Assembly: GCA_903906695.1 (NCBI GenBank)
Contig: CAIVLG010000115.1
Coordinates: 1-34,700 of the forward strand
Reading direction: 5' to 3'
DNA from: an uncultured beta proteobacterium
Lineage (GTDB): Bacteria; Pseudomonadota; Gammaproteobacteria; Burkholderiales; Burkholderiaceae_C
DNA length: 34,700 nt
Under the pieces are notes generated by a model. That model was not told the origin of the DNA, did no database searches, and saw nothing but the letters and a program-made list of their open reading frames with translations. Made by a program: the position numbers and the translations under genes. This document shows positions 938-34,385 of the stretch, in pieces. How positions within the stretch are numbered: the first letter of the stretch is position 1; every line of letters begins with the position of its first letter.

Positions 938-1750
938 TTCGGCTGGTTGTGCGCGCAATGGGGCCGCAAGAAGGTGTTCATGATCACGGTGATCGGCTTC
1001 ACGCTGGCCTCGGCGCTGTGCGGTCTGGCCGGAGCGCTCTGGCAGATCGTGGCGGCGCGACTTTTGCAAGGTGTATTCGGAGCTGCCCTGGTGCCTTTGT
1101 CGCAGGCGGTGCTGCTCGACATCAACCCGCGCGAACGAGTCGGTCAGGCGATGGCGATCTACGGTATCGCCCGGTATCTGCCCGAAACCCGGCCGGCGGC
1201 GGTCCGGCTCGACCCGTTTGGCTTCGCCACGCTGAGTCTGGGTGTAGGCGCGCTTCAGTTGTTTCTGGACCGGGGCGAGCAGCTCGACTGGTTCAATTCG
1301 ATCGAGATCCGTGCCGAGGCGATCACATCCCTGCTGGCGTTTCTATTTTTCTCGGTTCACACCTGGACTTCGTTGGGCAACTCGTTTCTCAACAAGGCAC
1401 TGCTACGTGACCGCAATTTCGTGGTCGGCGTCATGCTGGCCTTCATCGTCGGCGTGATTTTGTATGCCACCATGGCCTTGCAACCGTCCTTGCTGCAGGG
1501 TCTGATGAATTATCCGATTGTGTTCACCGGTTTGGTGATGGCGCCGCGCGGCATCGGCACCATGCTGGCCATGATGGCAGTGGGGCGTCTGCTGTACTAC
1601 ATCGATGTGCGCGTCATCATGGCTTTCGGATTTGCGCTGACCGCCTTTTCGCTCTACCTGAGTGACTTTCACATCATGATGTGGCTTACCCTGCTGGCGA
1701 CGCCGATGTTGCTGCTGTTGCGCAAGTCCAAGGCCCCGGCGCCAGGCTGA
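938..1750 (+). pseudogene. Decayed DHA2-type (EmrB/QacA) multidrug transporter
   Basis: The reading frame is open but encodes only pieces of a 14-helix DHA2 major-facilitator transporter (normally about 500 residues). Homology begins abruptly at GWLCAQWGRKK, the motif A loop between helices 2 and 3, so helices 1-2 and the true start are missing. After the segment ending GQAMAIYGI near position 1168 the frame jumps straight to RYLPETRP, the loop after helix 6, so helices 5-6 and motif C (the antiporter signature) are deleted in frame. The segment LQLFLDRGEQLDWF is typical EmrB. The C-terminal part is also shortened. The first in-frame start candidate, TTG at 947, lacks a ribosome site. It begins 36 bp from the divergent phosphatase gene, suggesting a deletion junction there. 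A functional transporter is very unlikely. Confidence 0.8.
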
Positions 1751-1820
1751 ATCCGTCACGGCGGCGAAGCGCGTCTGTGGCTACACTGCGTCATCACCAC
1801 CGTGCAAGGACGCCCAAGAC

Positions 1821-2696
1821 ATGACACACGCTGCCAATCGTGACCAATCCAAAAGCTATCTGCGCTGGGCGCTGCTGGCCGGCAGCCTGGTGGCGCTGGC
1901 TGCTTGTGCAAACCTGGCCGCGACCTTGAGCCGGGACCGGATCGCAGAAATCGTCGGCAGTCCGGACCGCAGCGCAGCCGACCGAAACAACGACCTGCGG
2001 CGCAAGCCCGAACAGATGCTGGCTTTCGTCGGCCTGCGGTCCGGCATGACGGCTCTGGATCTGAGCACCGGCGGCGGCTACACGGCCGAGTTGCTGGCCC
2101 GGGCTGTGGGTCCTGGCGGCGCGGTTTACGGCCAGAGCCAGCCATCACGGGCTGCGGAGGCAGCGCCACGGCCAGTCGTGACGCCAGAGGGCAATTCATC
2201 GCCGCAGCTGAAGACAGTACAACCGGCACCGAGTGCGACACCGGCTGTTCGTCGCACGTCGGCTCAGGCCCTCGCGGAACGGGCGGCGAACCCATTGCTC
2301 TCCAACCTGCACTCCACGGTGCGGGTTTTCGAAGACCCGGTGCCGCCCGAACTTGCAGGCAGGCTTGACCTGGTCACGCTGATGTTCAATTACCACGACC
2401 TCGGCCACATGGGGGTTGACCGTCAACGAATGAACGCAGCCGTGTTTGCGGGATTGAAGCCTGGTGGCCTCTACGTGATTGCCGACCATGCGGGTCGTGC
2501 CGGGACCGGCATCAGCGAGTCCGGAACTTTGCATCGAATCGAAGAAGCCTTTCTGCGCCAGGAGGTCGAGGCGGCCGGGTTCAAGCTCGCAGGCAGTGCC
2601 GATTTTCTGCGCAACCCTGCCGACCCGCGTGACAAGAATACGCCAGAGCCGGCGCAGCCCAAGGACGAGTTCGTTCTGAAGTTTCTGAAGCCTTGA
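1821..2696 (+). CDS. Lipoprotein class I SAM-dependent methyltransferase (COG4798-like)
   Basis: A 291-residue protein with a lipoprotein signal (LVALAAC, Cys29) followed by a Rossmann methyltransferase fold. SAM motif I is visible as ALDLSTGGGYTAELLA (about residues 76-91), and a later LVTLMFNYHDL plus LKPGGLYVIADHAG correspond to motifs IV-VI of the predicted methyltransferase family COG4798. Such proteins are often exported, and their substrate is unknown. Between motif I and the next core strand lies a stretch rich in Pro, Ala, Ser and Thr (about residues 104-150) that looks inserted compared with relatives as I remember them. An AAGGA ribosome site lies 10 bases before the ATG. The gene is followed after 4 bp by the MdtD-like transporter, so the two form an operon. 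Confidence 0.75.
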   Translation: MTHAANRDQSKSYLRWALLAGSLVALAACANLAATLSRDRIAEIVGSPDRSAADRNNDLRRKPEQMLAFVGLRSGMTALDLSTGGGYTAELLARAVGPGGAVYGQSQPSRAAEAAPRPVVTPEGNSSPQLKTVQPAPSATPAVRRTSAQALAERAANPLLSNLHSTVRVFEDPVPPELAGRLDLVTLMFNYHDLGHMGVDRQRMNAAVFAGLKPGGLYVIADHAGRAGTGISESGTLHRIEEAFLRQEVEAAGFKLAGSADFLRNPADPRDKNTPEPAQPKDEFVLKFLKP

Positions 2697-2700
2697 GGCC

Positions 2701-4140
2701 GTGAAGATTCCATCGGTCAGCGCCAAGGAGCAAAAAGAGCTCAATGCCTTGCTCTGGCTGGTGGCCTGCGGTTTTTTCATGCAGACGCTGGACGCCACCA
2801 TCGTCAATACTGCCCTGCCGTCGATGGCACGCAGCATGGGCGAGAGCCCGCTTCGCATGCAGTCCGTGGTGGTCTCGTATTCGCTGACGATGGCGATGCT
2901 GATTCCGGCATCGGGCTGGATTGCCGACCGCTTCGGCACACGCCGTGTCTATGTCGGCGCGATTGCGATGTTTGTCGCGGGCTCGCTGCTGTGCGCTGCG
3001 TCAGCCAGTTTGACCCAGTTGGTTGCGGCTCGGGTAGTGCAGGGAATGGGTGGCGCACTGTTGCTGCCAGTGGGGCGTCTGTCGGTGCTCAGATCGTTTC
3101 CGCGCAGTCACTTCCTGCCGGCCATGAGCTTTATGGCGATCCCGGGGCTGCTCGGCCCGCTGATGGGGCCGACCCTGGGAGGCTGGCTGGTCGAGGTCGC
3201 GTCCTGGCACTGGATATTTTTGATCAATCTGCCAGTCGGCCTGCTGGGCGGCGTCGCCACACTGATTTACATGCGCGGCGCACCGCTGAAGCTCGCGGCA
3301 CGCTTCGACCTGGTCGGCTATCTGTTGCTCGCGTTCGGCATGGTCTGTATTTCGCTGGCGCTCGATGGTATGTCGAGCCTGGGTCTGAGTCAGGCCGGTG
3401 TCCTGCTGCTGATCATCTTCGGCCTGGCGAGTCTTAGCTCATACTGGTTGCACGCGGCGCGCCATGACGATCCGCTTTTTCCTCCCGATCTGTTTTCCAA
3501 TCCAACCTTGAGCGTTGGCTTGCTGGGCAACCTGTTTTCGCGTCTGGGTAGTTCTGGCATGCCCTTGATGGTGCCGCTGCTGCTGCAAATCAGCATGGGC
3601 TATTCGCCGCTGCACGCCGGCATGATGATGTTGCCCGTGGCTCTGGCCGCCATGACGGTAAAACGACTGGTCACCACCCTGATCACGCGCGCCGGTTACC
3701 GGCGTGTGCTGGTGGTCAACACCATGCTGCTCGGTGTGATCATGGCGAGCTTTGCATTGACTTCACCGGACCGGCCATGGTGGGCGCTTTCCTTGCAACT
3801 GACCTGTTTCGGCGCCCTCAACTCGCTTCAGTTCACGGCCATGAATACGCTCACGCTGAAGGATCTGGACCCGGTCCATGCCAGCAGCGGCAATGCCCTC
3901 TTGTCGATGGTGCAGATGCTGGCCATCGGCATGGGTGTAGCCAGTGCCGGCGGCGTGCTGGCGGCTTTCACCGGTTTGTTTGGCAGTGCAACGCCAGCCC
4001 AGACACTCAATGCCTTTCATGCCACTTTTGTCTGCATGGGGCTGATGACACTGGCCTCGGCCAGCATCTTCTGGCAACTGACACCCAGTGAGAGCAGGGT
4101 GCCGCAATCTGCTTCGTCCGAGCTCTCGGACGCAGGCTGA
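2701..4140 (+). CDS. MFS multidrug transporter, DHA2 family, MdtD-like
   Basis: A 479-residue inner-membrane protein starting with GTG 4 bp after the methyltransferase stop. It has the length and pattern of a 14-helix DHA2 proton antiporter. Motif D1 (QTLDATIVNTALPSMA) sits in helix 1, motif A as GWIADRFGTRRV near residue 73, and motif C as GPTLGGWLVE with the following WIFLINLPVG typical of EmrB/MdtD proteins. These export drugs or metabolites in exchange for protons. E. coli MdtD (471 residues) is the closest named relative I recognise by pattern, but substrate specificity cannot be read from sequence. Unlike the decayed transporter upstream, all the expected segments are present. It is convergent with the next gene, with an 11-bp gap. 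Confidence 0.85.
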   Translation: MKIPSVSAKEQKELNALLWLVACGFFMQTLDATIVNTALPSMARSMGESPLRMQSVVVSYSLTMAMLIPASGWIADRFGTRRVYVGAIAMFVAGSLLCAASASLTQLVAARVVQGMGGALLLPVGRLSVLRSFPRSHFLPAMSFMAIPGLLGPLMGPTLGGWLVEVASWHWIFLINLPVGLLGGVATLIYMRGAPLKLAARFDLVGYLLLAFGMVCISLALDGMSSLGLSQAGVLLLIIFGLASLSSYWLHAARHDDPLFPPDLFSNPTLSVGLLGNLFSRLGSSGMPLMVPLLLQISMGYSPLHAGMMMLPVALAAMTVKRLVTTLITRAGYRRVLVVNTMLLGVIMASFALTSPDRPWWALSLQLTCFGALNSLQFTAMNTLTLKDLDPVHASSGNALLSMVQMLAIGMGVASAGGVLAAFTGLFGSATPAQTLNAFHATFVCMGLMTLASASIFWQLTPSESRVPQSASSELSDAG

Positions 4141-18867: not shown

Positions 18868-20166
18868 TCAAGCGGTGCCATACTTGGTTTCAACGCCGAT
18901 GCCAAGCTCCTTGAGCATCGCGGTTGGCAGCACGCCACCGACGCAGACGATGACGCTGTCGTTGTCGAGCGAAGCCGACCCGCCGTCGCCGTCAAGGACC
19001 ACCTGACGCTCGGTGATCTGCCTGACCTGTGTGCGCAGCGCCATCGTCAGTTGACCCCCGTTTTCAGCTTCCTTCAGAAGTTCGCGGTTTCTTTCGGTAA
19101 CGCGGCTGAAAGCGTCATTGCGATACGACAGGGTGACGTGAGCGCCAGGTTCGGCAGCGATTGCGACGGCGGCTTCAATGGCCGCGTTGCCACCGCCGAC
19201 CACCAGAACGCGCTTGCCCTGATATTGCTCCGGATCGATCAGGCGGTAGACCACCTTTGGCAGTTCTTCGCCCGGCACGCCGAGTTTGGTCGGGGAACCG
19301 CGCCGACCAATGGCGAGCAGAATCGAACGACAGTGATGCTCGGCCTTGGTGGTCTTGACCACAAAGCCGCGATCAACCGGCGTAATTTTTTCCAGACGTT
19401 CTCCAAATTCAATCGGAACTTTGGTCTTCTTGATGATGTCCTGCCAAAAGGCAAGCAAGGATTCCTTCGAGACCTCGCCCAACTTGACCTTGCCGACGAG
19501 GGCGAGCGTGACCGGATGGGTGGCAACAATCTTGTTGCGCGGATAGTGATAGACACAACCACCCAGCGAGTCCTCCTGCTCGATCGTGACAAAGCGCAAC
19601 TTGTGCGCCATCGCGGCAAGCGTGGCCGAGATTCCGGCCGGTCCGGCACCGACGATGAGCACGTCAAGTTGTTCCGGCTGGGCGCGGTTGCGACCGACCG
19701 ACTCGATCGCCTGACGCCCCTGTTCGGCGGCGTTGCGTATCAAGCCCATGCCACCCAGTTCGCCGGCGATGTAGATGCCGGCAACGTTGGTCTCAAAACT
19801 TGGCTTGACATAGGGAATGTCGATGCCCCGGCGCGCAGTACCGAAGACGAGTTTGATCGCCTCCACCGGACAGGCTGAGGCGCACGCGCCATGTCCTATG
19901 CACACCGTCGGGTTGATCAGATACGCTTTGCCCTTGACAATGCCGAGGGTGCCTTCGGGGCACGCCCTGGTACAGCCCCCTGCGCCGACACAGAGGTTCG
20001 GGTCGATCACCGGGTGCAGACTCGGCGGGTCCATCAGTCCCGATTTGACGGAACGTTGCAAAGCCGCAGCGGCCAACGTTTCCCGCGCGTGCCGGCGATA
20101 AAGGTACAGCACCAGAACCAACGCAAGCGGGGCCAGATAGACCAGCGGCAGCAGCAGTTCGGTCAT
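18868..20166 (-). CDS. Membrane-anchored FAD/NAD(P) oxidoreductase with N-terminal ferredoxin-like domain
   Basis: A 432-residue protein in three parts. Residues 1-23 are a transmembrane anchor (LLLPLVYLAPLALVLVLYLYRRH). Residues about 55-110 form a ferredoxin-like domain with two cluster motifs, CVGAGGCTRACP and CIGHGACASACP; each has three of the usual four cysteines, the second Cys of CxxCxxCxxxCP being replaced by Ala or His. Residues about 165-432 are a thioredoxin-reductase-like flavoprotein with FAD motif VLIVGAGPAGISA, NAD(P) motif VLVVGGGNAAIEAAVA and the closing VIVCVGGVLPTAMLKELG. No CxxC redox pair typical of thioredoxin reductase is seen. It lies 53 bp after the 24-haem cytochrome and probably passes electrons between NAD(P)H and the b/c cytochromes. 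Confidence 0.8.
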   Translation of the reverse strand: MTELLLPLVYLAPLALVLVLYLYRRHARETLAAAALQRSVKSGLMDPPSLHPVIDPNLCVGAGGCTRACPEGTLGIVKGKAYLINPTVCIGHGACASACPVEAIKLVFGTARRGIDIPYVKPSFETNVAGIYIAGELGGMGLIRNAAEQGRQAIESVGRNRAQPEQLDVLIVGAGPAGISATLAAMAHKLRFVTIEQEDSLGGCVYHYPRNKIVATHPVTLALVGKVKLGEVSKESLLAFWQDIIKKTKVPIEFGERLEKITPVDRGFVVKTTKAEHHCRSILLAIGRRGSPTKLGVPGEELPKVVYRLIDPEQYQGKRVLVVGGGNAAIEAAVAIAAEPGAHVTLSYRNDAFSRVTERNRELLKEAENGGQLTMALRTQVRQITERQVVLDGDGGSASLDNDSVIVCVGGVLPTAMLKELGIGVETKYGTA

Positions 20167-20219
20167 GGTAGGGGACCGACGGATGACCGGTCAGAAGTGG
20201 CCTGAGCCTGCATAGGTTT

Positions 20220-22061
20220 TTACTTGGATTGCTTGTTGGCTTCCTGATTGATCACATGACGCCAGCTGTCGGGCCGGTGGCAGCGCTCGCACAGCGGGCC
20301 CTTGGTGTCGAAGTGGATATCGTCCTGACGATGGCAACTCTTGCACTCGACTTCAAGTGTAACTTTGTCCGTGACCGGCTTGATGTGACAGGCAAGGCAC
20401 TTGACCTTGAGGTGTTTTTCAAGAAGTTTGAAGCGTGAGCTCAAATTGTGGTCAAACGCCCCCTCTTTCCAGCTGCGAGCGCTGTGGCATTGTTCGCAAC
20501 GTTGACCCAGGCGCTGTTTGTGAGCATCGTCCTTGGCATGGCAGGATGCGCAGTCGGCCTTTGCATCCTTGAACAAGGGGTTGCTGTGGCATTTCTTGCA
20601 TTCGAGTCCGCCATGCTTGTCACGCAACGGAAACGCCGACTTACTGTGGTCAAAGGAACTTTCATTCCACTTTGTTTCGCCATGGCAGCGCGCGCAATCA
20701 TTCCCAAGCTGCCCCTTGTGCTTGTCGTCGCGCTCATGACAGGTCGAACACCGCGTCTCCAGCTTGTCACGATAAAGATTGCCCTTGTGACAGGCGTCGC
20801 ACTTCGCTTGACTGTGCTTGGCGCGCAGCGGATAGCGCGCATCCCGCGCATGATCGAAAGTCACGCCTTTGAATGTTTTCTCCACGTGGCAGGTCTGGCA
20901 TTTCTCGCCGTAGCGCCCTTTGTGGCCTTTCTCCCGGTCATCGCGTTCGTGGCAGCCATAGCAGCTTGACGGTGGCTTGTCACTGAAAGGGCGGGTGTTC
21001 GTCTTGTCGCGCAAAGTGCCGGCGTCTTTGTGGCAGGCGTCGCATTTCGCCTTGCGGTGTGCATCAAGCAAGGGGAAGTGTGAATCGCGATCGTGATCAA
21101 AGCGCACCGCCTCCTTCCATGTCCGCTCGCTGTGACAGGTCTCGCATTTGTCGCCCAGAGCGGTCTTGTGCACGTCGTCCTTGCGATGGCAGGAAGAGCA
21201 CTTGAGCGGGGTATTGCCAAAATGCTGTACGTCCGCGTGGCATTCGGCGCACTTGGTTTTGGCGTGACTAAGGAGCAGCGGAAAACGGGTCTTCGCATGA
21301 TCAAAGCGCGCCTCCTTCCAACTGCCCTCGTTATGGCATTGCTCACACTTGGCGCTCAGTGTTGCCTTGTGCTTGTCGTCCTTGCGATGGCACGAGACGC
21401 ACTCGCGCGAAGTGTTGGCGAGGTGCTCTGAGTCGGTGTGACACGACACACACTTGACCTTTTCATGGCGCAGCAGCAGCGGAAATTTGGTCTTCGCATG
21501 GTCGAAGCTGGTCTGTTTCCAGCTGCTTTCGCTGTGGCAACTTGCGCACTTCGAGCCCAGCGTATCTTTGTGCTTGTCGTCTTTGTGGTGACAGTCAGCG
21601 CAGTTTGTGGGAGCGTCGCGGTGCTTGACATTAGGCTTGTGGCAGCTTGCGCATTTGGCGTCCTTATGCTTGCCGCGCAGCGAAAAATCGGTTTTCGCAT
21701 GGTCGAAGTTCTTTTCGTCCAGTCGAATGATATGGGCATCGCGCCCCTTGTGTTCGGTATGGCAGGTTCTGCATTCGCGCTCTTCCAGTCGGCCGTGGTA
21801 GCCGCTCTTGGCGCGTACATCCGCCGCGACTTTCTTATGGCAATCCAGGCACAGACGCGGTTGCGCCGAACGTTCCATGCGCACATGGCAGTTCTTGCAG
21901 TCGGCCTCTTCCTTGATGTGGGCGCGGGTGACATCGCCTGGCATGATGGCCGACTCCAGGCTTTGCGCATGCGTCGCTTGTGGGCAAATCCCAAGCACGA
22001 CGATAGTGACGGCCGCTGCGAGAGAGGCAAGACGCTTAATAAACGTGGACGGCCACGACAT
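20220..22061 (-). CDS. 24-haem periplasmic c-type cytochrome built of tri-haem repeats
   Basis: A 613-residue protein with a Sec signal (cleavage near ATHA-Q, residue 32 from the chosen ATG at 22059-22061; TTG at 22065 is an alternative). I count 24 CXXCH haem sites. After the first three sites come seven tandem units of about 60-70 residues, each with three haems and the frame FDHAKTxFPLxxxHxKxKCxxCH, then CxxCHxKDDxHK, then CxxCHxxxxWK. The extra histidines in FDH, the H before KxKC and DDxHK are natural distal ligands for bis-His haems. Such proteins act as periplasmic electron wires. No membrane anchor or lipobox is present. The gene overlaps the upstream b-type cytochrome gene by 26 bp, and the flavoprotein gene follows. 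Confidence 0.9.
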   Translation of the reverse strand: MSWPSTFIKRLASLAAAVTIVVLGICPQATHAQSLESAIMPGDVTRAHIKEEADCKNCHVRMERSAQPRLCLDCHKKVAADVRAKSGYHGRLEERECRTCHTEHKGRDAHIIRLDEKNFDHAKTDFSLRGKHKDAKCASCHKPNVKHRDAPTNCADCHHKDDKHKDTLGSKCASCHSESSWKQTSFDHAKTKFPLLLRHEKVKCVSCHTDSEHLANTSRECVSCHRKDDKHKATLSAKCEQCHNEGSWKEARFDHAKTRFPLLLSHAKTKCAECHADVQHFGNTPLKCSSCHRKDDVHKTALGDKCETCHSERTWKEAVRFDHDRDSHFPLLDAHRKAKCDACHKDAGTLRDKTNTRPFSDKPPSSCYGCHERDDREKGHKGRYGEKCQTCHVEKTFKGVTFDHARDARYPLRAKHSQAKCDACHKGNLYRDKLETRCSTCHERDDKHKGQLGNDCARCHGETKWNESSFDHSKSAFPLRDKHGGLECKKCHSNPLFKDAKADCASCHAKDDAHKQRLGQRCEQCHSARSWKEGAFDHNLSSRFKLLEKHLKVKCLACHIKPVTDKVTLEVECKSCHRQDDIHFDTKGPLCERCHRPDSWRHVINQEANKQSK

Positions 22062-22926
22062 GGACAAGCGCTGTGATCACGAGCATAAACAGAAACGGGA
22101 CGTGCACGACATGCCAAAGCGAAAACAGCCGCTCGTAGGTTGTGAACTGGGCGCGGCGCTGCACCGCTTGCAGAGCACGGTCGATGGTCTGCAGCAAATT
22201 GCTCAGACTTGCATGCGCCGCCGGGCGATTCTCTTCGGTCACCGCGTACTGAGCGAGGGTTTTTCGCAGCCGCCGCGCAGCCAGCATGCGCTTGGCACCG
22301 AGCGAAAAAAAGTGCAGGGCGCGCGCCGACCAGCCTGTCGGCGGATGTGAACCCAGGGCGGCGAAGCGTTCGACCTCCTGCTTCACAAGCGGCATCCGGC
22401 GCAGCACCGGTTCCAGCGCTTCAAACTCTTGTGCCAGCGTCTGTTCGAGTTCCTTCAGTGAAGCGTGAGTTCCGTAGAGCCCATGGTGGATCTTGCGATA
22501 AACAAATCGTCCGACCACACCGCTGGCAACGACCAGCAACATGCATCCCAGCGCCACGGCGGCATTGAACGAACCGACGTGAAAGGTCGAATGAAACAGG
22601 ATCAACAGCGGACCGAAGATTCCACCGGCCATGTGAAACTGGAACCAGTACTTGAGAGGGCCCCATCCATGCATGAAACGCAGGCGCTTGCGCACTGGGT
22701 AGAGCAAGAGGCCGAGCATCAGCATGCCGCCTGCCAGTCCGAGCGCGTAGCCGAGCCCCTTGCCCGATGCATAGGGTGCATTGCTGTGCACCACCCAGGC
22801 CACCAGCAGGAGGAAAAGTAGAGTCAGTGTCAGTGCGGTGCGCAGCACAAAGATGCGCAATCGCTCGATTTGCATCGGGCTGGCGGATGCCAGCATGGGT
22901 GAGTTGAGGATGGCCTCTCTATTCAT
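22036..22926 (-). CDS. Di-haem b-type membrane cytochrome, first gene of the leftward electron-transfer operon
   Basis: A 296-residue inner-membrane protein. It has a four-to-five-helix layout: two N-terminal helices (TLTLLFLLLVAWVVHS; LAGGMLMLGLLLYPV), then FQFHMAGGIFGPLLILFHSTFH, VALGCMLLVVASGVVGRFVY, a soluble helical loop of about 100 residues, and a last helix LWHVVHVPFLFMLVITALVH. Two helices carry His pairs 13 residues apart (H-x13-H), with a further H-x3-H, which suits two b haems stacked across the membrane. The same spacing occurs in the protein at 33807. The AAAGG ribosome site is 7 bases from the ATG. It probably links quinol or the flavoprotein to the 24-haem periplasmic cytochrome. 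Haem binding is inferred. Confidence 0.75.
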   Translation of the reverse strand: MNREAILNSPMLASASPMQIERLRIFVLRTALTLTLLFLLLVAWVVHSNAPYASGKGLGYALGLAGGMLMLGLLLYPVRKRLRFMHGWGPLKYWFQFHMAGGIFGPLLILFHSTFHVGSFNAAVALGCMLLVVASGVVGRFVYRKIHHGLYGTHASLKELEQTLAQEFEALEPVLRRMPLVKQEVERFAALGSHPPTGWSARALHFFSLGAKRMLAARRLRKTLAQYAVTEENRPAAHASLSNLLQTIDRALQAVQRRAQFTTYERLFSLWHVVHVPFLFMLVITALVHVVAVHVY

Positions 22927-23167: not shown

Positions 23168-23824
23168 ATGAACACTAATATCTCAATCAAATGGGTTTTG
23201 ACGGCGCTACTTTTTATCTTAGCGCGGGCTGGCATGGCCAACACCTTGGCGGGGTCAGCGCATGACTTCACCACGGCGGCCTGGAGCGGCGGAAAAGTAT
23301 GCATAGCCTGCCACGTACCGCACAAGAGCGACACCACAGTGCTGGATGCGCCGCTATGGAATCACACGCTCACGACCCAGACCTACACCTTGTATACCAG
23401 TCCGACCATCAAGGCCAGTATGGGACAACCCGGGGGTAATTCCAAGTTGTGCCTGTCCTGCCACGACGGCACCATCGCCGTCAACAGCTTCGGTGGCGTC
23501 ACCGGAACGACAATGATCAGCGCTGCAAACAATCTGGGTACCACTTTGAAGGACGATCATCCGATCGGTTTCACCTACGACACGGCGCTGTCTGCCGTCA
23601 AAGGCGATGTCTATGATCCCGGCGCGAAGACGGTGACCATCGGTTCGGGCACGACGACCAAGACCGGGACTGTCAACGCGCTGATGCTCTTCAGTGGAAA
23701 AATGGAATGTTCGTCTTGCCACGATGTGCACAACACATTTACCGTTGGAGCCAGTACCGGTGCGGGCATGGTGAAGATGGCTTCCGCCGGCAGTGCGCTC
23801 TGCCTGGCTTGCCACAACAAGTAG
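23168..23824 (+). CDS. Exported tetrahaem c-type cytochrome, OmcE-like (candidate nanowire subunit)
   Basis: A 218-residue protein with a Sec signal (WVLTALLFILARAGMA, cleavage near residue 24) and no lipobox. There are four CXXCH sites: CIACH, CLSCH, CSSCH and CLACH. Exactly five other histidines exist in the mature chain: SAHDF, CHVPH, LWNH, DDHPIGF and CHDVH, enough for distal ligands. The order CxxCHxPH, LWNH, LCLSCHDGTIA, DHPIxFxY, CSSCHDxHN, SALCLxCHN is the pattern I associate with Geobacter OmcE, whose subunits stack into extracellular filaments. Between haems it is Gly/Thr/Ser rich with few charges, as expected for a polymerising subunit. The same module forms the N-terminal third of the protein at 28169. 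Filament formation is inference. Confidence 0.85.
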   Translation: MNTNISIKWVLTALLFILARAGMANTLAGSAHDFTTAAWSGGKVCIACHVPHKSDTTVLDAPLWNHTLTTQTYTLYTSPTIKASMGQPGGNSKLCLSCHDGTIAVNSFGGVTGTTMISAANNLGTTLKDDHPIGFTYDTALSAVKGDVYDPGAKTVTIGSGTTTKTGTVNALMLFSGKMECSSCHDVHNTFTVGASTGAGMVKMASAGSALCLACHNK

Positions 23825-23828
23825 CGAG

Positions 23829-23841
23829 CTCGGCGCCCGAG
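23829..23841 (+). other. Small stem-loop after the tetrahaem cytochrome stop
   Basis: CTCGG-CGC-CCGAG forms a 5-bp stem with 3-base loop, beginning 4 bases after the stop codon. No T-run follows, so full termination is unlikely. It is the first of three inverted-repeat elements in the 129-bp gap before the first NHL gene. Confidence 0.35.
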
Positions 23842-23902
23842 ACGATTGACTTTGCGGCTTGGCATGGCCGTAGAATCCGCGACTCGGCGCGCGACTCTCA
23901 AT

Positions 23903-23914
23903 CACTCTAGAGTG
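23903..23914. promoter_or_regulatory. 12-bp perfect palindrome between tetrahaem and NHL genes
   Basis: CACTCTAGAGTG is a perfect inverted repeat placed just ahead of the hairpin at 23916. It could be an operator for a secondary promoter or part of an RNA structure. No promoter boxes with good spacing are obvious around it. Confidence 0.35.
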
Positions 23915-23915
23915 T

Positions 23916-23939
23916 CGTGGAGCGTCCGGGCGCTTCACG
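23916..23939 (+). other. Strong intercistronic hairpin before the first NHL gene
   Basis: CGTGGAGCG-TCCGGG-CGCTTCACG folds into a 9-bp stem (one G-T wobble) with a 6-base loop. It ends 14 bases before the ATG at 23954 and has no T-run. It may stabilise the upstream tetrahaem message or mark a processing site, allowing more of the small cytochrome than of the downstream proteins. Confidence 0.5.
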
Positions 23940-23953
23940 TCGATAAGGTCGGA

Positions 23954-25120
23954 ATGAAAACAAAGCTAAAGAAAGAACTTGGTTGCTGGCTGCAATTTGG
24001 CATCGTGTCGGTAATGGCCGTGGCGTTGCTTGCAGGTTGTGCTACCGCGCCTAACCCGGAACCACAGGCGCAGGGAACGTCGTTCTATCCGCCTCTGCCC
24101 AACCCGCCGCGCATCCAATATTTAAAGACACTAACGGGCGAGCGTGACATGGGAGCCCCTGCGTCTGACTTTAGCAAGTTTGTTCTGGGTGACGAAACCA
24201 GGACGTTACAGCTCAAGCAGCCTTATGGGGTCGGCCTCTACGGGGGCAAGCTTTACGTTGTCGACACCAGCGCGCCAGGTCTGGCCGTATTCGACCTTGT
24301 GCAGCAGCGCTTCGAGGTGATGACTGGAGCACCCAGCGGGCGCATGAAGCGTCCGATCAATATCACGATCGACAGCGACGGAACCAAATACGTCACCGAT
24401 ACCGGGCGCGATCAGATCCTGGTATTCGATCGAAGCGACCGATTCGTTCAGGCTTATGGTAGTCCCGGTCAATTCAAGCCAGTCGACGTTGCAATAGCCG
24501 GCGATCGACTTTATGTCACCGATATCCAGCACCACGAAGTCCAGGTGTTGGACAAGCACACAGGCAAGTTCCTGTTCAAATTTGGCAGCGCCGGATCAAA
24601 ACAGGGCGAATTGTTCCACCCCACCAATATTGCGATCGACACAGACGGGGATGTGTACGTGGTCGAAACCAGTAATTTTCGCGTGCAGCGGTTTACCGCG
24701 GAAGGAAGGTCGGTCCGGATTTACGGGGACATCGGCAGCGAGAGCGGTACGTTTTCTCGGCCCAAAGGGATTGCGCTCGATCGCAACAATCGGATTTACG
24801 TTGGGGACGCGGCATTTCAGAATGTACAGATATTTGACAGGGAGGGCCGACTACTGCTGTTCTTCGGACAACCGGGCGGTGATGTCGAAGGACTCAATCT
24901 GCCCACGGGCATCAAGGTCGATTACGACAACGTGAAGTATTTCCAAGCCTATGCCGATCCGAAGTTCCATGTCGAGTATCTGGTTTTTGTGGTGAGCCAG
25001 TTTGGCCCGAACAAGGTTGACGTGTTCGGCTATGGAAGAATGAACGGAATGGACTATGCGGCAGATGAAGCTGCGGCCGCCAAGTCGGTGACAAAGCCGG
25101 TACCCAAGGGTGAGAATTGA
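23954..25120 (+). CDS. NHL-repeat beta-propeller lipoprotein 1
   Basis: A 388-residue lipoprotein; ATG at 23954 is chosen because the signal (SVMAVALLAGC, Cys at about 29) follows it directly and AAGG precedes it; a longer frame from 23846 is unsupported. The mature part holds six NHL blades, each with the form 'P-x-G/N-I-A-I-D ... Y-V-x-D ... V-Q-x-F', for example LKQPYGVGLYGGKLYVVD, MKRPINITIDSDGTKYVTD and FSRPKGIALDRNNRIYVGD. This gives a six-bladed propeller, a binding platform in the periplasm or on the outer membrane. NHL proteins accompany cytochrome-filament genes in Geobacter by general knowledge. The stop overlaps the barrel gene start by 4 bp (TTGA). Confidence 0.85.
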   Translation: MKTKLKKELGCWLQFGIVSVMAVALLAGCATAPNPEPQAQGTSFYPPLPNPPRIQYLKTLTGERDMGAPASDFSKFVLGDETRTLQLKQPYGVGLYGGKLYVVDTSAPGLAVFDLVQQRFEVMTGAPSGRMKRPINITIDSDGTKYVTDTGRDQILVFDRSDRFVQAYGSPGQFKPVDVAIAGDRLYVTDIQHHEVQVLDKHTGKFLFKFGSAGSKQGELFHPTNIAIDTDGDVYVVETSNFRVQRFTAEGRSVRIYGDIGSESGTFSRPKGIALDRNNRIYVGDAAFQNVQIFDREGRLLLFFGQPGGDVEGLNLPTGIKVDYDNVKYFQAYADPKFHVEYLVFVVSQFGPNKVDVFGYGRMNGMDYAADEAAAAKSVTKPVPKGEN

Positions 25121-27144
25121 GGGTAAGCCGCGAGTGTGTTCTGCTGGTGCGCTGGTTTGCGGTGTTTTGGGGTTGCGAGTGGAGTGCTGCGCAGGAGATT
25201 GCGCCATTTCGTCTGACCGGCGTGGAGGGCTATAACAACCTGCGCTTTGTGCGTGACCAGTTTGAGACGACGCAATCAGGTGCAGGTACGGCGGCAAGTA
25301 CGACTTCAAGACAGGTGCAGTCAGATTTTCGCGAAGAACTCTTCGTCATGACCCACAGCTACATCTATCACCCGAATCTGTTGTCGCTTGACGTCGGACT
25401 GGGTCCGATATTGCAGCAAAGCAGTTTTCAGGACGACGGCGCAGAAACCAAGTCCCGCGACGCGCTTTACAACTTCTCTGGTCTGGCGAAATTTCTGCGA
25501 GACAAACCCTATCAAGGCTCTGTCTCTTACGAACATTTGAATCCAACCGTGAGCGTTGCGCCGGGCCAGGTGATCACTCAGCAAAACACGCGTTTCGGCG
25601 CCGATCTCGCGCTGATGGGGCCGTTTGTATCGGTGCCGACCTTTATCGACTTTTCACGCTCGCACATGTTGGGGCGCAGTGTGGATCGCATCATCGACGA
25701 TCAGATCGATCAGTTCAATCTGCGGGCCAGCCGCAACTTCGCCGGGCTGGGGTCAACCCAGGTGCAGTACCAGGCATCGAGGCAGGTGTCTCAAAGTGGA
25801 AGTCCGAATTTGCCGATACAGGGCACGAATACGATCAACCAGGGCTTGAGCGTAGACTCGCGCTTTCAATTTGGGGTGGCGCGGCAATACGACCTCACCA
25901 ACCTGATCACTTTCAATACGCAGATTTACACGCTGGAAGGACAGAACCCAATCCCGGATCGCAAGGACGCCAGGCTCTTGCTCGATCTGCGCGGCAGGCA
26001 CGCCGATGACTTGCAGAGCTTCGGTGTCTTCAACCACAGCTCAAGTGATCAGGGCGACCTGAGTTCGAATGCGAACTCTTTAGCCGCTGGTGTGAACTAC
26101 AACCCGCGGCCTGAGTTCTCCGCCAGCGCCGGGATGCATGCCGATCAGAATCAGACCAGGCAACTGAGCTCCAGCACGCGTGGCGTCGATGGAAGCGTGC
26201 GTTTTCAGCAGACGCTGCCTTTGGGCGTGGCGCAGGCGAGCTACACCTTGCGCTACGACCAGCGCGATCAGGTCGCGACGGCGGCGCAAACGGACGTCAT
26301 CGGTGAGCGCGTCACACTGGTTGGTACCACCTACATCGTGCTGGCGCAGCAACATGTCACTGCCGGCAGTGTTGTGGTCGCCAACGTCGCTCGGACACAG
26401 ACTTTTGTCGAAGGCAGCGACTACGTGCTGACACTTGTCGGCACCGAGACCAGATTGCAGCGAATGATTGGCGGCGCCATTCTGGATAGTCAGGACCTGC
26501 TGGTAGATTATTCGTACGACTTGGGCGGGACCTTTGGTTATCGTCAGATCGATCAAACACTCAATCTCAACTGGGCGCTGGGCAGCTATTTCAATGCCTA
26601 CTTTCGCTATCTGGACTCGGCACCGAGCCTGAGCTCGGGTGTTCCGACTTTCCCTCTGAACACGGTGCGCAGCAGCCTGTACGGTATCCGCGCCGACGTG
26701 CCGATCAAGGGAAGCTTGCCGATGATCCTGGGCGCAAGCTTTGAAAGGGAGGACCGACGCGAGACCATTTCGCCTTACCGGCGCGACGCCGAGGAACTGT
26801 ATGCCCAGGTGGAGGACCCCTTCTTCGGTGCCGGCAACTATCGCGTCTCAGCGCGGCGTAGCCGGGTGGTGTATGACAATTCGCTGCAGAACGTTGACCT
26901 CCACGGCTATGATCTTCGGTATTGGGTGCGCTTTATGTCGGGTGTGGAGTTGTCCATGAACGTGAACGCTGAGACCGATACCGGTGGCCCGGTCGAGCGG
27001 CGGCACCTGGTCTCGACCGTAAAAGCCGAGTGGAATTATCGCAAGCTGAAGATGACTCTTGATATGGGACGCACCTTGGAGACGCAGGGTGATTTCAGAC
27101 GCGCACCGGCTCTGCTGCAAATACAGGTTCGGAGGGAATTTTGA
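25117..27144 (+). CDS. Outer-membrane beta-barrel protein, candidate porin of a porin-cytochrome conduit
   Basis: A 675-residue protein with a TTG start overlapping the previous stop by 4 bp and GGTGAG just before it. A poor but plausible signal ends near WSAAQ (residue 25). The rest is made of alternating short amphipathic strands (for example YQGSVSYEHLNPTVSVA, FGVARQYDLTNLITFNTQIYTL, SVRFQQTLPLGVAQASYTLRYD, YFNAYFRYLDSAPSL) and ends in QIQVRREF, the terminal Phe expected for BAM-inserted barrels. There are few cysteines and no haem motif. No named family is recognised; size and context match MtrB/OmbB-like barrels that sheath a cytochrome, or a secretion pore for the filament. Position between two NHL genes is conspicuous. 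Confidence 0.75.
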   Translation: MRVSRECVLLVRWFAVFWGCEWSAAQEIAPFRLTGVEGYNNLRFVRDQFETTQSGAGTAASTTSRQVQSDFREELFVMTHSYIYHPNLLSLDVGLGPILQQSSFQDDGAETKSRDALYNFSGLAKFLRDKPYQGSVSYEHLNPTVSVAPGQVITQQNTRFGADLALMGPFVSVPTFIDFSRSHMLGRSVDRIIDDQIDQFNLRASRNFAGLGSTQVQYQASRQVSQSGSPNLPIQGTNTINQGLSVDSRFQFGVARQYDLTNLITFNTQIYTLEGQNPIPDRKDARLLLDLRGRHADDLQSFGVFNHSSSDQGDLSSNANSLAAGVNYNPRPEFSASAGMHADQNQTRQLSSSTRGVDGSVRFQQTLPLGVAQASYTLRYDQRDQVATAAQTDVIGERVTLVGTTYIVLAQQHVTAGSVVVANVARTQTFVEGSDYVLTLVGTETRLQRMIGGAILDSQDLLVDYSYDLGGTFGYRQIDQTLNLNWALGSYFNAYFRYLDSAPSLSSGVPTFPLNTVRSSLYGIRADVPIKGSLPMILGASFEREDRRETISPYRRDAEELYAQVEDPFFGAGNYRVSARRSRVVYDNSLQNVDLHGYDLRYWVRFMSGVELSMNVNAETDTGGPVERRHLVSTVKAEWNYRKLKMTLDMGRTLETQGDFRRAPALLQIQVRREF

Positions 27145-28172
27145 TTACAGCAACCGGTGCCCGAACGTTGGCCATCCTCACGCTGGGTTTGACCCTGTGG
27201 GGCTGCACCGCGCCGGCGCAGAACGTGGAGAAGATTGCGCCTCTGGTGTGGCCGGCTGCGCCCGACGCGCCGCGTATCGTTTTTGTCCAGGCTTTCTCCC
27301 GGCCCGAGGACCTGGGCATCAGTCGTGGATTCTTGCAGCGCGCGGCCGACCTGCTGTTTGGGCGCGACGAATTGGGTCTGGTCCGTCCGATGGCGGTGGT
27401 CGCCCTGGGGGACATCTTGTACGTCGCGGATCCGGGTGCAAAAGGAGTGCACCGTTTCGACCAGAAAGAGGGAAGGCATGAACTGATCTATGCCGCAGGC
27501 GGCGCACCCTTGCCGTCCCCGGTCGGGCTTGCACTGGGGGCAGCGGGCGAAGTCTATGTCAGCGATTCGGCGCTTGCGACGGTATTCATTATCCGACCCG
27601 GTGCGAAGGAGGCGGTGCCGCTGGCTCTGGGTGCGAAGCTGGGACAGCCCACCGGGATCGCATTCGACCCGATCGGCGCGCGCCTGTTTGTGGTGGACAC
27701 CAGCGCGCACTGCGTCAACGTGTTCAGCCGCGACGGCTCACTGGAGTCGAGTTTCGGTCAGCGTGGTACGGCCGACGGTGAATTCAACTATCCGACTCTG
27801 GTCTGGCGCACACCCGAGGGCCGCTTGTACGTGACAGACTCCCTGAATTTCCGGGTCCAGAGTTTCGATGAGCAGGGGCGTTTCCTGACCAAATTCGGCG
27901 GCTTGGGCGATGGCGCCGGTGATTTGCCAAGGCAAAAAGGTGTTGCGACCGATCACTATGGGCACGTCTACATCGTCGATTCGCTGTTTCATGCGTTGCA
28001 GGTTTTCGACGAGCACGGCACATTCCTGTTGTCACTCGGCGGTATCGGGCACGAGCGTGGTGAATTCTGGTTGCCGACTGGCTTGTTCATTGGCGCAGAC
28101 GACAGGATTTATATCGCCGATTCCTATAACCAGCGGGTGCAAGTGCTGCGCTATATCGGAGGTCCGACATGA
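27141..28172 (+). CDS. NHL-repeat beta-propeller lipoprotein 2
   Basis: A 343-residue lipoprotein with a TTG start, GGAGG 5 bases upstream, and a 4-bp overlap with the barrel gene. The signal ends in LTLWGC (Cys22). Six NHL blades follow, such as LVRPMAVVALGDILYVAD, LGQPTGIAFDPIGARLFVVD, FNYPTLVWRTPEGRLYVTD and FWLPTGLFIGADDRIYIAD. It is a paralogue of the propeller at 23954: both carry 'APRI-F/Y' shortly after the lipobox (PDAPRIVFVQAFSRPEDLG against PNPPRIQYLKTLTGERDMG), so the pair came from a duplication. A role as periplasmic scaffold or assembly factor for the cytochromes is inferred. The stop overlaps the next ATG as ATGA. Confidence 0.85.
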   Translation: MITATGARTLAILTLGLTLWGCTAPAQNVEKIAPLVWPAAPDAPRIVFVQAFSRPEDLGISRGFLQRAADLLFGRDELGLVRPMAVVALGDILYVADPGAKGVHRFDQKEGRHELIYAAGGAPLPSPVGLALGAAGEVYVSDSALATVFIIRPGAKEAVPLALGAKLGQPTGIAFDPIGARLFVVDTSAHCVNVFSRDGSLESSFGQRGTADGEFNYPTLVWRTPEGRLYVTDSLNFRVQSFDEQGRFLTKFGGLGDGAGDLPRQKGVATDHYGHVYIVDSLFHALQVFDEHGTFLLSLGGIGHERGEFWLPTGLFIGADDRIYIADSYNQRVQVLRYIGGPT

Positions 28173-29848
28173 GCGGACGGCGCGCTGCCTGGACCGCCGT
28201 CGCCGCCATCGGCTGGGCGCTGCTGCTCGCCGGCTCGGCCTGGGCCGGCGTCGCCACCACCAAACACAATCTGTCGGCCAGTGGGCCAGGCACGGTAAAA
28301 GCGACTACCGAGACCCAGCTCTGCGTCTTCTGCCATGCACCACACAACAGCTCACCCAGCGCCGCCCTGTGGAATCGTCAAACGCCGGGAGCCACCTATC
28401 TGCCCTATACAAGTTCGACCACGAAGGCTGCTACCGGTCAGCCGACACGCGGTTCGCTTCTGTGTCTGAGTTGTCATGATGGCACGATCGCACTGGGCCA
28501 GGTGCTCAACCGCGCCACCCCGATTGCGATGACGGGAGGGGTCACCACCATGCCCGCCGGTTCGGTCAGCCGCCTGGGAACCGATCTGTCGGGTGACCAC
28601 CCCATTTCTTTCGCCTACACCTCGGCGCTTGCGGCAACCCGCGGCGAGTTGGTGGACCCTGGCATGCTGACCGGTGCAGTGCGCCTGGACAGCAGTGGAC
28701 AAATGCAGTGCAGTGCCTGCCACGATGCGCACAACAACGCCAACGGCAAATTCCTGGTGATGTCCAATACCGCCTCGGCGCTGTGCCAGGTCTGTCACAT
28801 CAAGAACTACTGGAATGCGAGCGACCACAAGCTGTCGACCAAAACCTGGACCGGCGCTGGCCCCAACCCCTGGCCGCATAGCAGTGGCACCACGGTTTCC
28901 GCCAATGCCTGTGAGGGCTGCCACCGGCCGCATACGGCCCCGGGCAAGAAGTGGCTGCAGAATGCGGCGACTGAAGAAGACAATTGCTATCCCTGTCACA
29001 ACGGCAACGTGGCAGCGAAGAACATTCAGACCGAATTCACCAAAGCCTCGATTCACCCGGTTGCCAGCACGACCGGCGTGCATGACCCCTCAGAAACCGC
29101 AGTGGTCAACTCGCGTCACGTCGAATGCGTCGATTGCCACAACCCGCACGCCAGCAATGGCACCTCTGGCACGCTGGCAGGCTCGCTCATCGGCGTGCGC
29201 GGAATCAACATCAGCGGTGCCGAGGTAAAACCCGCCAGCGCCGAATACCAGATCTGTTTTCGCTGCCATGCTGATAGCAGCAACCTCCCGGCACCGCACA
29301 CCGCACGCCAATTCGTGCAGAGCAACACGCGTCTGGAGTTCAGCACCGGCAACCCGTCCTTTCATCCGGTCGCGGGTCCAGGCAAGAGCAGCAAGGTGCC
29401 CAGTCTGATTGCGCCGTGGACGACCGCCAGCGTGATTGCGTGCAGCGATTGCCACAACAACAATGCCGGGCCGCTTGCCGGTGGAACGGGTCCTAACGGG
29501 CCACACGGATCGACCAACCCGATACTGTTGGAACGTCCGTATGCGACCACCGCGGCGCCGACGGCAGGTGACATCTGCTACAAGTGCCACAGCCAATCGG
29601 TGGTCACAAAGGAGTCACCGCACAACCGTTCGGAGCATTTGCGCTACGGCTGCAAAGCCTGCCATGACGCGCACGGCATCAGCTCCACGCAGGGCACGAC
29701 CACCTACAACAGCCGTCTGATCAATCTCTCGACCACCGACAACAAACCGGTGACCTCTGGCGCCACGTCCGTGATGTATGTTGACACCGTCGCTCGCAAG
29801 TGCTACTTGAGCTGCCACGGCGAAAGTCACAATGGAAGGACCTATTGA
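28169..29848 (+). CDS. Exported 12-site multihaem c-type cytochrome with N-terminal tetrahaem (OmcE-like) module
   Basis: A 559-residue protein with a Sec signal (cleavage near AWA-G, residue 26) and GGAGG before its ATG. I count 11 CXXCH sites plus one CX3CH (CYLSCH) near the C terminus. The first four (CVFCH, CLSCH, CSACH, CQVCH) lie in a module that follows the 218-residue cytochrome almost blade for blade: CxxCHAPH, LWN, YTSSTTKAATGQP, LCLSCHDGTIA, DHPISFAY, CSACHDAHN, SALC. The rest is of the doubled-CXXCH type (CEGCHRPH, CVDCHNPH, CKACHDAH). Likely the terminal or anchoring cytochrome of the conduit. It ends the four-gene set of 4-bp overlaps; a hairpin follows. Confidence 0.85.
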   Translation: MSGRRAAWTAVAAIGWALLLAGSAWAGVATTKHNLSASGPGTVKATTETQLCVFCHAPHNSSPSAALWNRQTPGATYLPYTSSTTKAATGQPTRGSLLCLSCHDGTIALGQVLNRATPIAMTGGVTTMPAGSVSRLGTDLSGDHPISFAYTSALAATRGELVDPGMLTGAVRLDSSGQMQCSACHDAHNNANGKFLVMSNTASALCQVCHIKNYWNASDHKLSTKTWTGAGPNPWPHSSGTTVSANACEGCHRPHTAPGKKWLQNAATEEDNCYPCHNGNVAAKNIQTEFTKASIHPVASTTGVHDPSETAVVNSRHVECVDCHNPHASNGTSGTLAGSLIGVRGINISGAEVKPASAEYQICFRCHADSSNLPAPHTARQFVQSNTRLEFSTGNPSFHPVAGPGKSSKVPSLIAPWTTASVIACSDCHNNNAGPLAGGTGPNGPHGSTNPILLERPYATTAAPTAGDICYKCHSQSVVTKESPHNRSEHLRYGCKACHDAHGISSTQGTTTYNSRLINLSTTDNKPVTSGATSVMYVDTVARKCYLSCHGESHNGRTY

Positions 29849-32537: not shown

Positions 32538-33806
32538 ATGACTTCTCTCACTCTGCTGCTCTGGATTGTTGGTGGCATCTTCCTGCAACTGGGGGTTTAT
32601 CTCAGCTATGGTTTCTGGCGCCATTGGCTGGACTACCTGGCGCTGCGCCGTCGTGCCACCGATCTGAGTATTCCCGTCAATGCGCTGAGATCCAGCGAAG
32701 AGCAGGAAGCGACATCGCCCGCGTGGCAAGGACTGCGCAGTTTCCGGGTCGTGCGAAAGCAGGTGGAAGACGCTGCGCAGTCGATCTGCTCCTTTTATCT
32801 GGTCCCGCAAGATGGCTTGCCACTGCCGCCCTTTCAGCCCGGGCAGTTTTTGACCTTTCAGCTCGACTTGTCCACGGCAGGTGGCAGCACGACGCCTGTT
32901 ATCCGCTGTTATTCGCTTTCTGACGCGCCTGACCCGAACAGCTATCGGGTATCGATCAAGCGCGCCCTAGTGCCCGCGGGGAGTTCCGTGCCACCCGGTC
33001 GTTCCTCCAACTTCTTCCATGACCACATCGATGTCGGAAGTGTTTTACAAATACGCGCGCCATCGGGTCATTTCTACCTTGATCGCAGCGACGCACCGGT
33101 GGTGCTGATTGGCGGTGGCATTGGTATCACGCCCATGCTCAGCATGCTCAATGGGTGCCTGAGTGAACATCCGGGCCGCGAAGTCTGGTTGTTCTATGGT
33201 GTGCGCAAAGGTCATGACGTGGTGATGAAATCTCACCTCGAAGCTATGGCGCAAGCGCATTCGAATTTTCATTTGCGCCTTTGCTTCAGTAACCCGCTGC
33301 CTGCCGATGTTGCAGGCAGCGACTACCAGCATCACGGGCGCATTGATGTTGAACTGCTACGTCGCGAATTGCCGCTCAAACCCTACCACTTCTACATCTG
33401 CGGTCCTACGACCATGCTGCAAAGCTTGGTGCCCGCCCTGGAAGACTGGGGCGTACCCGATGCGCGAATTCACTATGAGGCCTTCGGTCCGGCATCGATC
33501 CAGCGCAAATCGGCAGCGCCGGCGCTCGCCACAGCGCCAGACGAGGCGGCCGGCCTGGTGGTCACCTTTTCCCGATCCGGCCAGCAGTTGCCCTGGCAGA
33601 GCGGTGCCGGCACGCTGCTGGAGTTTGCCGAGGCGCAGGGCATCAGAGTCGATTCCGGCTGCCGCGCCGGGGGATGCGGTACTTGCCAGACGACGATCCT
33701 GGCCGGCGAGGTGGCGTATTGCCAGACGCCCGATTTTGACCCTGAGCCAGGCACTTGCCTGCTGTGTGTTTGCACGCCAAAGACCAGCGTGAGTCTGGAG
33801 CTGTAA
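32538..33806 (+). CDS. Membrane-anchored FNR-type oxidoreductase with C-terminal [2Fe-2S] ferredoxin domain
   Basis: A 422-residue protein. Residues 4-27 are a transmembrane anchor (LTLLLWIVGGIFLQLGVYLSYG). Next is an FAD domain with RCYSLSDAP (the RxYS flavin motif) and an NAD(P) domain with VLIGGGIGITPMLSML and YHFYICGPTTML. The C-terminal plant-type ferredoxin binds a [2Fe-2S] cluster through CRAGGCGTCQ plus the later CLLC. The layout is that of NADH oxidoreductases of the Hcr/vanillate demethylase reductase class but tethered to the membrane. GGAAG lies 9 bases before the ATG. The b-type cytochrome gene follows directly (TAA then ATG), so it likely exchanges electrons between NAD(P)H and that cytochrome. 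Confidence 0.85.
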   Translation: MTSLTLLLWIVGGIFLQLGVYLSYGFWRHWLDYLALRRRATDLSIPVNALRSSEEQEATSPAWQGLRSFRVVRKQVEDAAQSICSFYLVPQDGLPLPPFQPGQFLTFQLDLSTAGGSTTPVIRCYSLSDAPDPNSYRVSIKRALVPAGSSVPPGRSSNFFHDHIDVGSVLQIRAPSGHFYLDRSDAPVVLIGGGIGITPMLSMLNGCLSEHPGREVWLFYGVRKGHDVVMKSHLEAMAQAHSNFHLRLCFSNPLPADVAGSDYQHHGRIDVELLRRELPLKPYHFYICGPTTMLQSLVPALEDWGVPDARIHYEAFGPASIQRKSAAPALATAPDEAAGLVVTFSRSGQQLPWQSGAGTLLEFAEAQGIRVDSGCRAGGCGTCQTTILAGEVAYCQTPDFDPEPGTCLLCVCTPKTSVSLEL

Positions 33807-34385
33807 ATGAAGAAGTCCCTCTGGGGCGGACATGTGCTGCCTTTCATCCTGCTGCTGGGACTGCTCGCAGCAGCCACTCTGGCTGGTGACTATGCACTGC
33901 ATCGGCTCAACCTGGTCTGGGTGGGGCGCTACCTGGGCATTCCGGGAACATTGCTGATCATTGGTTCGCTGGTCTATTCGATGCGCAAACGCAAATACAT
34001 CACGAGCGGGGATCCGAAGACTCTGCTCAAGCTGCACGAGTTCTGCGCCTGGCTAGGTTCCTTGATGATTCTGATTCATGCTGGCATTCATTTCAACGCC
34101 CTGTTGCCCTGGCTCGCCACCGTCGCCATGGCGGTCAACGTGGTCAGTGGCATGGTCGGCAAGTTGCTGCTGGAGCGCTCGCGCCGCCATGTGCAGGGCC
34201 AGCGCGATCACTTCCAGTTGCGTGGCCTGTCCAAACCCGAAGTGGAGCAAGCGGTATTCTGGGACGCTGTGACGGTGGATGCGATGAAGCAGTGGCGCAA
34301 GGTGCATATCCCGATCTTCATTGTCTTTGTGGTGCTGGCGCTGGGCCACATCTTCAGTATCTTCCTGTTCTGGGGCTGGGTATGA
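33807..34385 (+). CDS. Di-haem b-type membrane cytochrome, paralogue of the protein at 22036
   Basis: A 192-residue inner-membrane protein with about five helices. LHEFCAWLGSLMILIHAGIH has the His spacing H-x13-H-x3-H, identical to that in the 296-residue protein at 22036, followed in both by an SGMVGK or SGVVGR turn; the last helix repeats H-x13-H (VHIPIFIVFVVLALGH). It is shorter because the soluble loop is reduced. Two b haems across the membrane are inferred. The ATG directly follows the oxidoreductase stop with GGAG 8 bases upstream, and the stop overlaps the next gene as ATGA. It probably hands electrons to the membrane-anchored multihaem c protein encoded next. Confidence 0.75.
   Translation: MKKSLWGGHVLPFILLLGLLAAATLAGDYALHRLNLVWVGRYLGIPGTLLIIGSLVYSMRKRKYITSGDPKTLLKLHEFCAWLGSLMILIHAGIHFNALLPWLATVAMAVNVVSGMVGKLLLERSRRHVQGQRDHFQLRGLSKPEVEQAVFWDAVTVDAMKQWRKVHIPIFIVFVVLALGHIFSIFLFWGWV

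Follow-up and report, generated by a model that had tools for sequence, protein, structure and literature searches.

How a cytochrome nanowire starts, where it stops and by what it is connected to the cell are, to our knowledge, open questions, and they are raised by a cluster of five consecutive genes in an uncultured beta proteobacterium (contig CAIVLG010000115.1 of assembly GCA_903906695.1). The window, by which we mean the whole stretch of DNA analysed, is that entire 34,700-base contig (C115) of a draft genome of 4.42 Mb in 289 contigs. A first-pass annotation had proposed that the cluster encodes an extracellular nanowire, with a tetrahaem protein as filament subunit and a 12-site cytochrome connecting the filament to the cell; the five open reading frames (ORFs) were found on the plus strand at the positions it had given. 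Judged by its gene content, the cluster is a compact relative of the undecahaem electron transfer (Uet) system, and on balance we think that it probably builds and anchors an OmcE-type cytochrome filament. The feature that we regard as most interesting, an OmcE-type domain and a single predicted ligand, His220, within the 12-site protein UetJ, lay outside the original finding.

23168..23824, plus strand: UetA/OmcE-like tetrahaem cytochrome, 218 residues, candidate filament subunit (7TFS homology, four CxxCH).
23954..25120 (listed ORF from 23846), plus strand: NHL beta-propeller lipoprotein 1, 388 residues (Pfam NHL, 9.8e-19; lipobox LAGC).
25117..27144, plus strand: outer-membrane-type beta-barrel, 675 residues, distant UetC relative (profile match, low-confidence model).
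27141..28172, plus strand: NHL beta-propeller lipoprotein 2, in the UetI position (Pfam NHL, 1.3e-19; lipobox-like LWGC).
28169..29848, plus strand: UetJ-like cytochrome, 559 residues, 11 CxxCH and one CxxxCH (aligned with 54 homologous ORFs).
28244..28804, plus strand: OmcE-type domain of UetJ, residues 26-212 (7TFS match, E 1.6e-29).
28826..28828, plus strand: codon of His220 in UetJ, proposed covalent stand-in for the inter-subunit haem ligand (conservation).
28805..29845, plus strand: C-terminal 8-haem extension of UetJ, residues 213-559 (weak multihaem matches, by profile only).

By content the five genes correspond to UetA, UetC, UetH, UetI and UetJ. The Uet system of Candidatus Tenderia electrophaga is also reported from Gallionella and (UetJ with its porin) from Group 2 of the Sphaerotilus-Leptothrix genomes (PMC13386937). 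It has the same kinds of part, namely a tetrahaem protein, a barrel, two NHL propellers and an 11- or 12-site cytochrome (11 and 12 CxxCH have been reported for UetJ), and the suggestion that the gene set is without precedent does not hold. All of these are found in the window, the UetC-type barrel by a distant profile match (prob 95.9). The isomerase UetB, the trihaem proteins UetD, UetE and UetG and the TPR protein UetF are not among the five genes (for an isomerase or a TPR protein no search was made elsewhere in the genome), and we have therefore filed the cluster as a compact variant rather than a full Uet member. A Gallionella locus (L062), in contrast, has the kinds of gene published for Uet: a tetrahaem protein, a PPIC isomerase, a barrel, trihaem proteins, two propellers and UetJ. 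The window further differs from Uet in its order (A-NHL-C-NHL-J), in the length of UetJ (559 residues versus about 770-980 in loci with trihaem genes) and in its barrel, a distant relative of the UetC-position barrels of six loci.

Is the 218-residue protein a filament subunit? To judge from homology it is a genuine OmcE relative, as had been proposed. As a single sequence it matches just two of all solved structures at E up to 10, in each case over almost its whole length: the chain of the OmcE filament of Geobacter sulfurreducens (PDB 7TFS; E 1e-20, 35% identity over 178 aligned columns) and chain 9YUQ (4.1e-18, 35% over 172), from an entry that holds 16 chains. OmcE and 9YUQ are 44% identical to each other. 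A UetA family profile of 16 members raises these scores to 3.1e-55 and 2.5e-48, and the next solved protein, OmcS, reaches only 4e-5. UetA falls with the filament-forming OmcE, and in neither of these searches of solved structures does a soluble monomeric cytochrome come close to it in score. We aligned 101 domains (39 single-domain proteins including the window's, 55 UetJ domains, five split or cut-off UetJ and the two solved chains) and found four well-conserved His outside the CxxCH motifs, at window positions 32, 52, 131 and 188, common to UetA, the N-terminal domain of UetJ, OmcE and 9YUQ. UetA thus has end-to-end homology, four CxxCH and four distal His, as in the OmcE-type filament family, with the same eight His aligned in OmcE itself; the polymer is known for OmcE and predicted for UetA. 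Position 32 is a gap in one of the 39 single-domain proteins (L059). A fifth His, H66, is present in 15 of the 39 and absent from the solved chains OmcE and 9YUQ. One locus (L010:8696-10207) has two additional UetA-like genes directly after UetJ, the second without the second distal His.

The label OmcE-like also fits the first 212 residues of the 559-residue protein, which the first-pass annotation had missed. UetJ residues 14-212 match OmcE (7TFS) positions 14-232, which is near full length, with E 1.6e-29 and 41% identity over aligned columns; in sequence terms this part of UetJ is an OmcE domain fused to an eight-haem extension. The 12 sites of the whole UetJ had been counted correctly. 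The CxxxCH is kept in 7/7 compact homologues (the window included) versus 5/48 others. These comparisons rest on 54 fused ORFs (at least eight CxxCH, more than 450 residues, E<1e-20) from 50 loci, which with the window make 55 and include some near-copies. All 55 have the first eight CxxCH and, outside these motifs, nine invariant His, one of which is His220. The N-terminal His33 is found in 55/55 in the uncut alignment; the trimmed 101-domain alignment shows it in 46/55 only because its rows begin 30 residues ahead of the first haem site. Two UetJ genes lie within one fetched stretch in L031, L034, L036 and L055.

His220 lies ten residues past the last haem site of the OmcE domain in the window UetJ and is conserved in all 55 homologues; in every one, the next His beyond the last CxxCH of the domain stands 10-16 residues behind that motif. 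A later search found the His, in a W..S.H motif, in 10/10 UetJ, four of them identical to earlier rows and six new (6/6). In the 43 single-domain ORFs examined, of which 41 have four CxxCH and two have five, just 1-4 residues follow the last CxxCH, and no His is found in this tail. In all four loci with a split UetJ (L028, L039, L045 and L064) a tailless four-haem protein and a seven-haem protein are encoded by two genes, and the seven-haem protein has a His exactly 10 residues ahead of its first haem site. A profile alignment sets His220 on the N-terminal His33 (E 1.1e-12). In the window UetJ, as in the six compact relatives, 12 haem sites stand against 13 conserved His outside them; by this ligand count, which is bookkeeping and not structure, UetJ would have one His to donate and require none. 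According to PMC9473688, a haem in an OmcE or OmcS filament receives a His ligand from the adjoining subunit, and only the end haems are exposed. The simplest reading of these sequences is that the extension supplies internally what the neighbour supplies in the polymer. We suggest that His220 replaces the ligand borrowed from the neighbouring subunit and that UetJ is a covalent filament end.

How might such a filament work? We infer polymerisation, the pairing of His with haem, location and the direction of electron flow from the protein families, the domain fusion, conservation and gene order. UetA would be exported and would polymerise outside the cell, where a haem of each subunit would be ligated by the N-terminal His (H32) of an adjacent one, in the manner of OmcE, whose subunits likewise lend a His. 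The OmcE domain of UetJ, with the same N-terminal His, could donate to a UetA subunit, and the haem of this domain that needs a neighbour's His would be completed instead by His220 of the fused extension. Because UetJ could donate a ligand and would require none, it would end or nucleate the filament at one side. The eight-haem extension would continue the haem chain, probably into or under the UetC barrel, and the two propeller lipoproteins would aid export or hold the complex. That UetJ carries a fused OmcE domain favours the earlier idea of the 12-site protein as the link between filament and cell. We put forward tentatively, as a generalisation that may well fail, that UetJ is the end piece of OmcE-type nanowires from betaproteobacteria to Magnetococcales, with a split version in Nitrospirota: an OmcE subunit fused to its own "next neighbour", nucleating one-way growth and wiring the filament into the barrel.

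The ligand count says merely that UetJ can end a filament on one side, which could as well be the outer tip, touching a mineral, an electrode or a partner cell, as the base, and a figure legend in PMC9473688 leaves possible tip proteins out of consideration. The close linkage of UetJ, in most loci to the propeller genes and in the compact ones to the barrel, nevertheless fits a base better, and we regard a tip as distinctly unlikely. The two OmcE-type domains might also have nothing to do with one another, UetJ being an independent multihaem protein in which domain shuffling has reused the OmcE fold with no contact to UetA. In a quick tree the UetA and UetJ domains are mostly apart (label changes: J 2, shuffled mean 33.7; A 3), with 35/98 inner branches weak and L021 loose; both are therefore maintained as distinct proteins, and two old separate lines would suit independence, as would genomes with UetJ and no second match (for example, G299 and G816). 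However, such absences are weak, since the phylum sample scored two candidates per genome and contains many drafts. In that sample UetJ-type matches occur in 24/398 genomes (own included), of which 20 also have an OmcE-like single-domain match, one of them partial (by count of the listing). In many loci, moreover, one fetched stretch contains both UetA and UetJ, and every UetJ of the alignment has the N-terminal His. We regard independence as very improbable.

Where would the extension go? It has no solved relative by single-sequence search; by profile its matches to solved proteins are weak and mixed (OmcS 1.4e-5, MtrA 1.9e-4), and those of MtrA type occur in four alternative registers, as repeats do. 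As the extension resembles an MtrA-type protein in several registers, a placement within the barrel is conceivable. This bears on a classical porin-cytochrome conduit, in which UetJ would sit inside the barrel like MtrA in MtrB and UetA would be a small non-polymerising extracellular carrier or adaptor. The cluster does share with the MtrCAB complex a barrel and multihaem cytochromes, but UetA has the haem and His layout of the filament family and no C-terminal spare ligand, the MtrA matches come in several registers as those of repeats do, and the barrel is unlike MtrB: it has no Pfam MtrB_PioB match up to E 0.1 (versus 1.1e-138 for a barrel encoded on contig C142 of this genome), and MtrB ranks only 20th among the barrels that match it. 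We consider the conduit unlikely. We also tried to read UetJ as three tandem OmcE-like units (12 haems = 3 x 4) and do not claim this, as an MtrA-like control beats OmcE for unit 2 (UetJ OmcE domain 1.1e-12, UetA 1.3e-12, control 2.6e-14); unit 3 matches the OmcE domain at only 2.2e-4.

The profile of the barrel matches that of six UetC-position barrels (L062, L032, L050, L030, L046 and L042) with an hhalign probability of 95.9 and E 6.3e-9; the barrels of L060, L021, L039 and L045 (prob 3.9) were not counted as relatives. The protein, annotated as an outer-membrane barrel, is indeed modelled as a large barrel of outer-membrane type, at low confidence, with 27-28 longer strands by hand count and general barrel matches. 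Residues 385-468, which lie within the least confident part of the model, give a sub-threshold match (28.4 of 60 bits) to a phage tail-tube model.

Several observations weigh against an anchored OmcE-type filament. That the inter-subunit His of OmcE is its N-terminal His is our reading of the filament family, and two of the 39 single-domain proteins, the UetA-like ones of L010 and L062, have no His at position 52, the second distal site. The first half of the extension matches the OmcE domain (1.1e-12) no better than it matches the genome's MtrA-like decahaem protein (2.6e-14); none of the remaining 11 control cytochromes does better than 8.8e-9. The monomer model of UetJ is unusable (predicted local distance difference test, pLDDT, 49.7), and that of the barrel is weak (pLDDT 62.6, below 50 in 245/675 residues). 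The compact barrel is also rare, being found in 2/399 genomes of the order (own included).

Is the arrangement of the genes meaningful? Its novelty, which the first-pass annotation had suspected, is not borne out. One scan of a species genome collection, with a three-member UetJ alignment as query, gave 58 loci, eight of which hold split, cut-off or single-domain forms and not a fused UetJ. The order A-NHL-barrel-NHL-J recurs in five other distinct loci (L009, L010, L011, L012 and L013; L006 and L007 duplicate the DNA of L011 and L012), with barrel identity down to about 42%, and L014 has the same order with a remote barrel (22% identity); chance is therefore excluded as its cause. The closest loci come from drafts labelled beta proteobacterium, Betaproteobacteria, Proteobacteria and Sterolibacterium sp., and some labels (LacPavin, AlinenLipids) suggest lakes. 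UetJ-type loci as a whole were found in beta- and gammaproteobacteria, Magnetococcales and further groups, and the carriers include the named strains Dechloromonas hankyongensis (L042) and Ferrimonas sediminicola (L032). Within the window's genus they are patchy: the UetJ profile finds a match at 1e-20 in 11/60 genomes (the window included, by count of the listing), of which nine have more than a lone tetrahaem domain. The compact barrel is found in 3/60 genomes of the relatives sample (own included). On a contig labelled Desulfurococcales archaeon (L057) an NHL ORF is followed by the beginning of a UetJ-like gene (47% identical over residues 4-188), perhaps through a binning error or a transfer, and giant ORFs with 35 and 43 CxxCH lie near OmcE-like genes at L028:15447-21728 and L065:10852-17805.

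The two propellers have the NHL match and lipobox expected of the lipoproteins they had been called, with the difference that the first most likely starts at ATG 23954, which is preceded by AAGG (a possible ribosome site), and not at TTG 23846; this start would give 388 residues with the lipobox LAGC. A lipobox was not found in either propeller of L009. A propeller 2 homologue stands directly before UetJ in most loci. The 4-bp overlaps said to join the last four genes are present in the window; in relatives they vary and depend on the starts chosen. We rejected the possibility that a hairpin or terminator downstream of uetA increases the dose of the subunit (RNA fold z -1.64); terminator-like sites are not enriched (six observed versus a mean of 6.6 in shuffles).

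Helper genes grouped with a nanowire cytochrome are also a feature of the Osc (omcS companion) genes of Geobacter, where OscD is propeller-like and OscH an isomerase. Compared by description only, the two are alike in this grouping and unlike in their subunit, since Osc serves the hexahaem OmcS and the window has a tetrahaem, OmcE-type protein. For this nanowire cytochrome operon, folding (OscH), secretion (OscEFG) and morphology (OscD) are the roles proposed in PMC13194489. If our reading is right, Uet would be an anchored nanowire system, more than a porin-cytochrome conduit, and the Uet clusters of iron-oxidising and cathode-growing bacteria would be linked to OmcE nanowires. A filament-subunit fold, a haem-rich extension and one invariant extra His make UetJ a concrete candidate for the junction, with a prediction that concerns a single residue. 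A literature search did not find the link between Uet and OmcE nanowires; the original Uet, OmcE and Osc papers were outside its reach, and the link may be published.

What would feed the filament from within? The five-gene description, right as to its genes, had missed a divergent module next door (18868-22926).

22036..22926, minus strand: membrane protein, 296 residues, b-type-cytochrome-like in our reading, divergent neighbour (homologues in L009, L010 and L011).
20220..22067, minus strand: 24-haem periplasmic-type cytochrome with eight c7 stretches (24 CxxCH; Cytochrome_C7, 8.9e-32).
18868..20166, minus strand: flavoprotein with two 4Fe-4S motifs, possible cytoplasmic end of the module (Pyr_redox_3, 1e-39; Fer4_10, 4.1e-11).

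The membrane protein matches no Pfam family. Homologues of it and of the 24-haem protein stand beside L009, L010 and L011, the latter with 21 CxxCH in L009 and cut by contig ends in L010 and L011; flavoprotein homologues are found in L008 and L009. L012 and L013 have a 9-haem gene directly after UetJ instead. The 24-haem protein may carry electrons across the periplasm, and such a c7 polymer could replace the separate trihaem cytochromes of Uet. Further along the window, an NAD/2Fe-2S reductase (32538-34385, plus strand) adjoins a small membrane-type protein that is 29% identical to the G011 relative of the 22036-22926 protein.

The genome also has an MtrCAB-type set (C142:57573-63269; L093:7574-13270) with an MtrB_PioB barrel (1.1e-138), a 10-haem MtrA-like protein and an MtrC/OmcA-like 10-haem protein, and the organism therefore probably has a second outer-membrane route, of MtrCAB type. 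Beside this set lie two further large 10-haem ORFs (L093:1276-7429) and one more that is cut by the L092/L093 border. Contig C209, in which no OmcE-like match was found, encodes at positions 1-3918 (L095) a second 24-haem cytochrome, 43% identical to that of the window, together with a cut 10-haem ORF and a 323-residue ORF free of haem sites.

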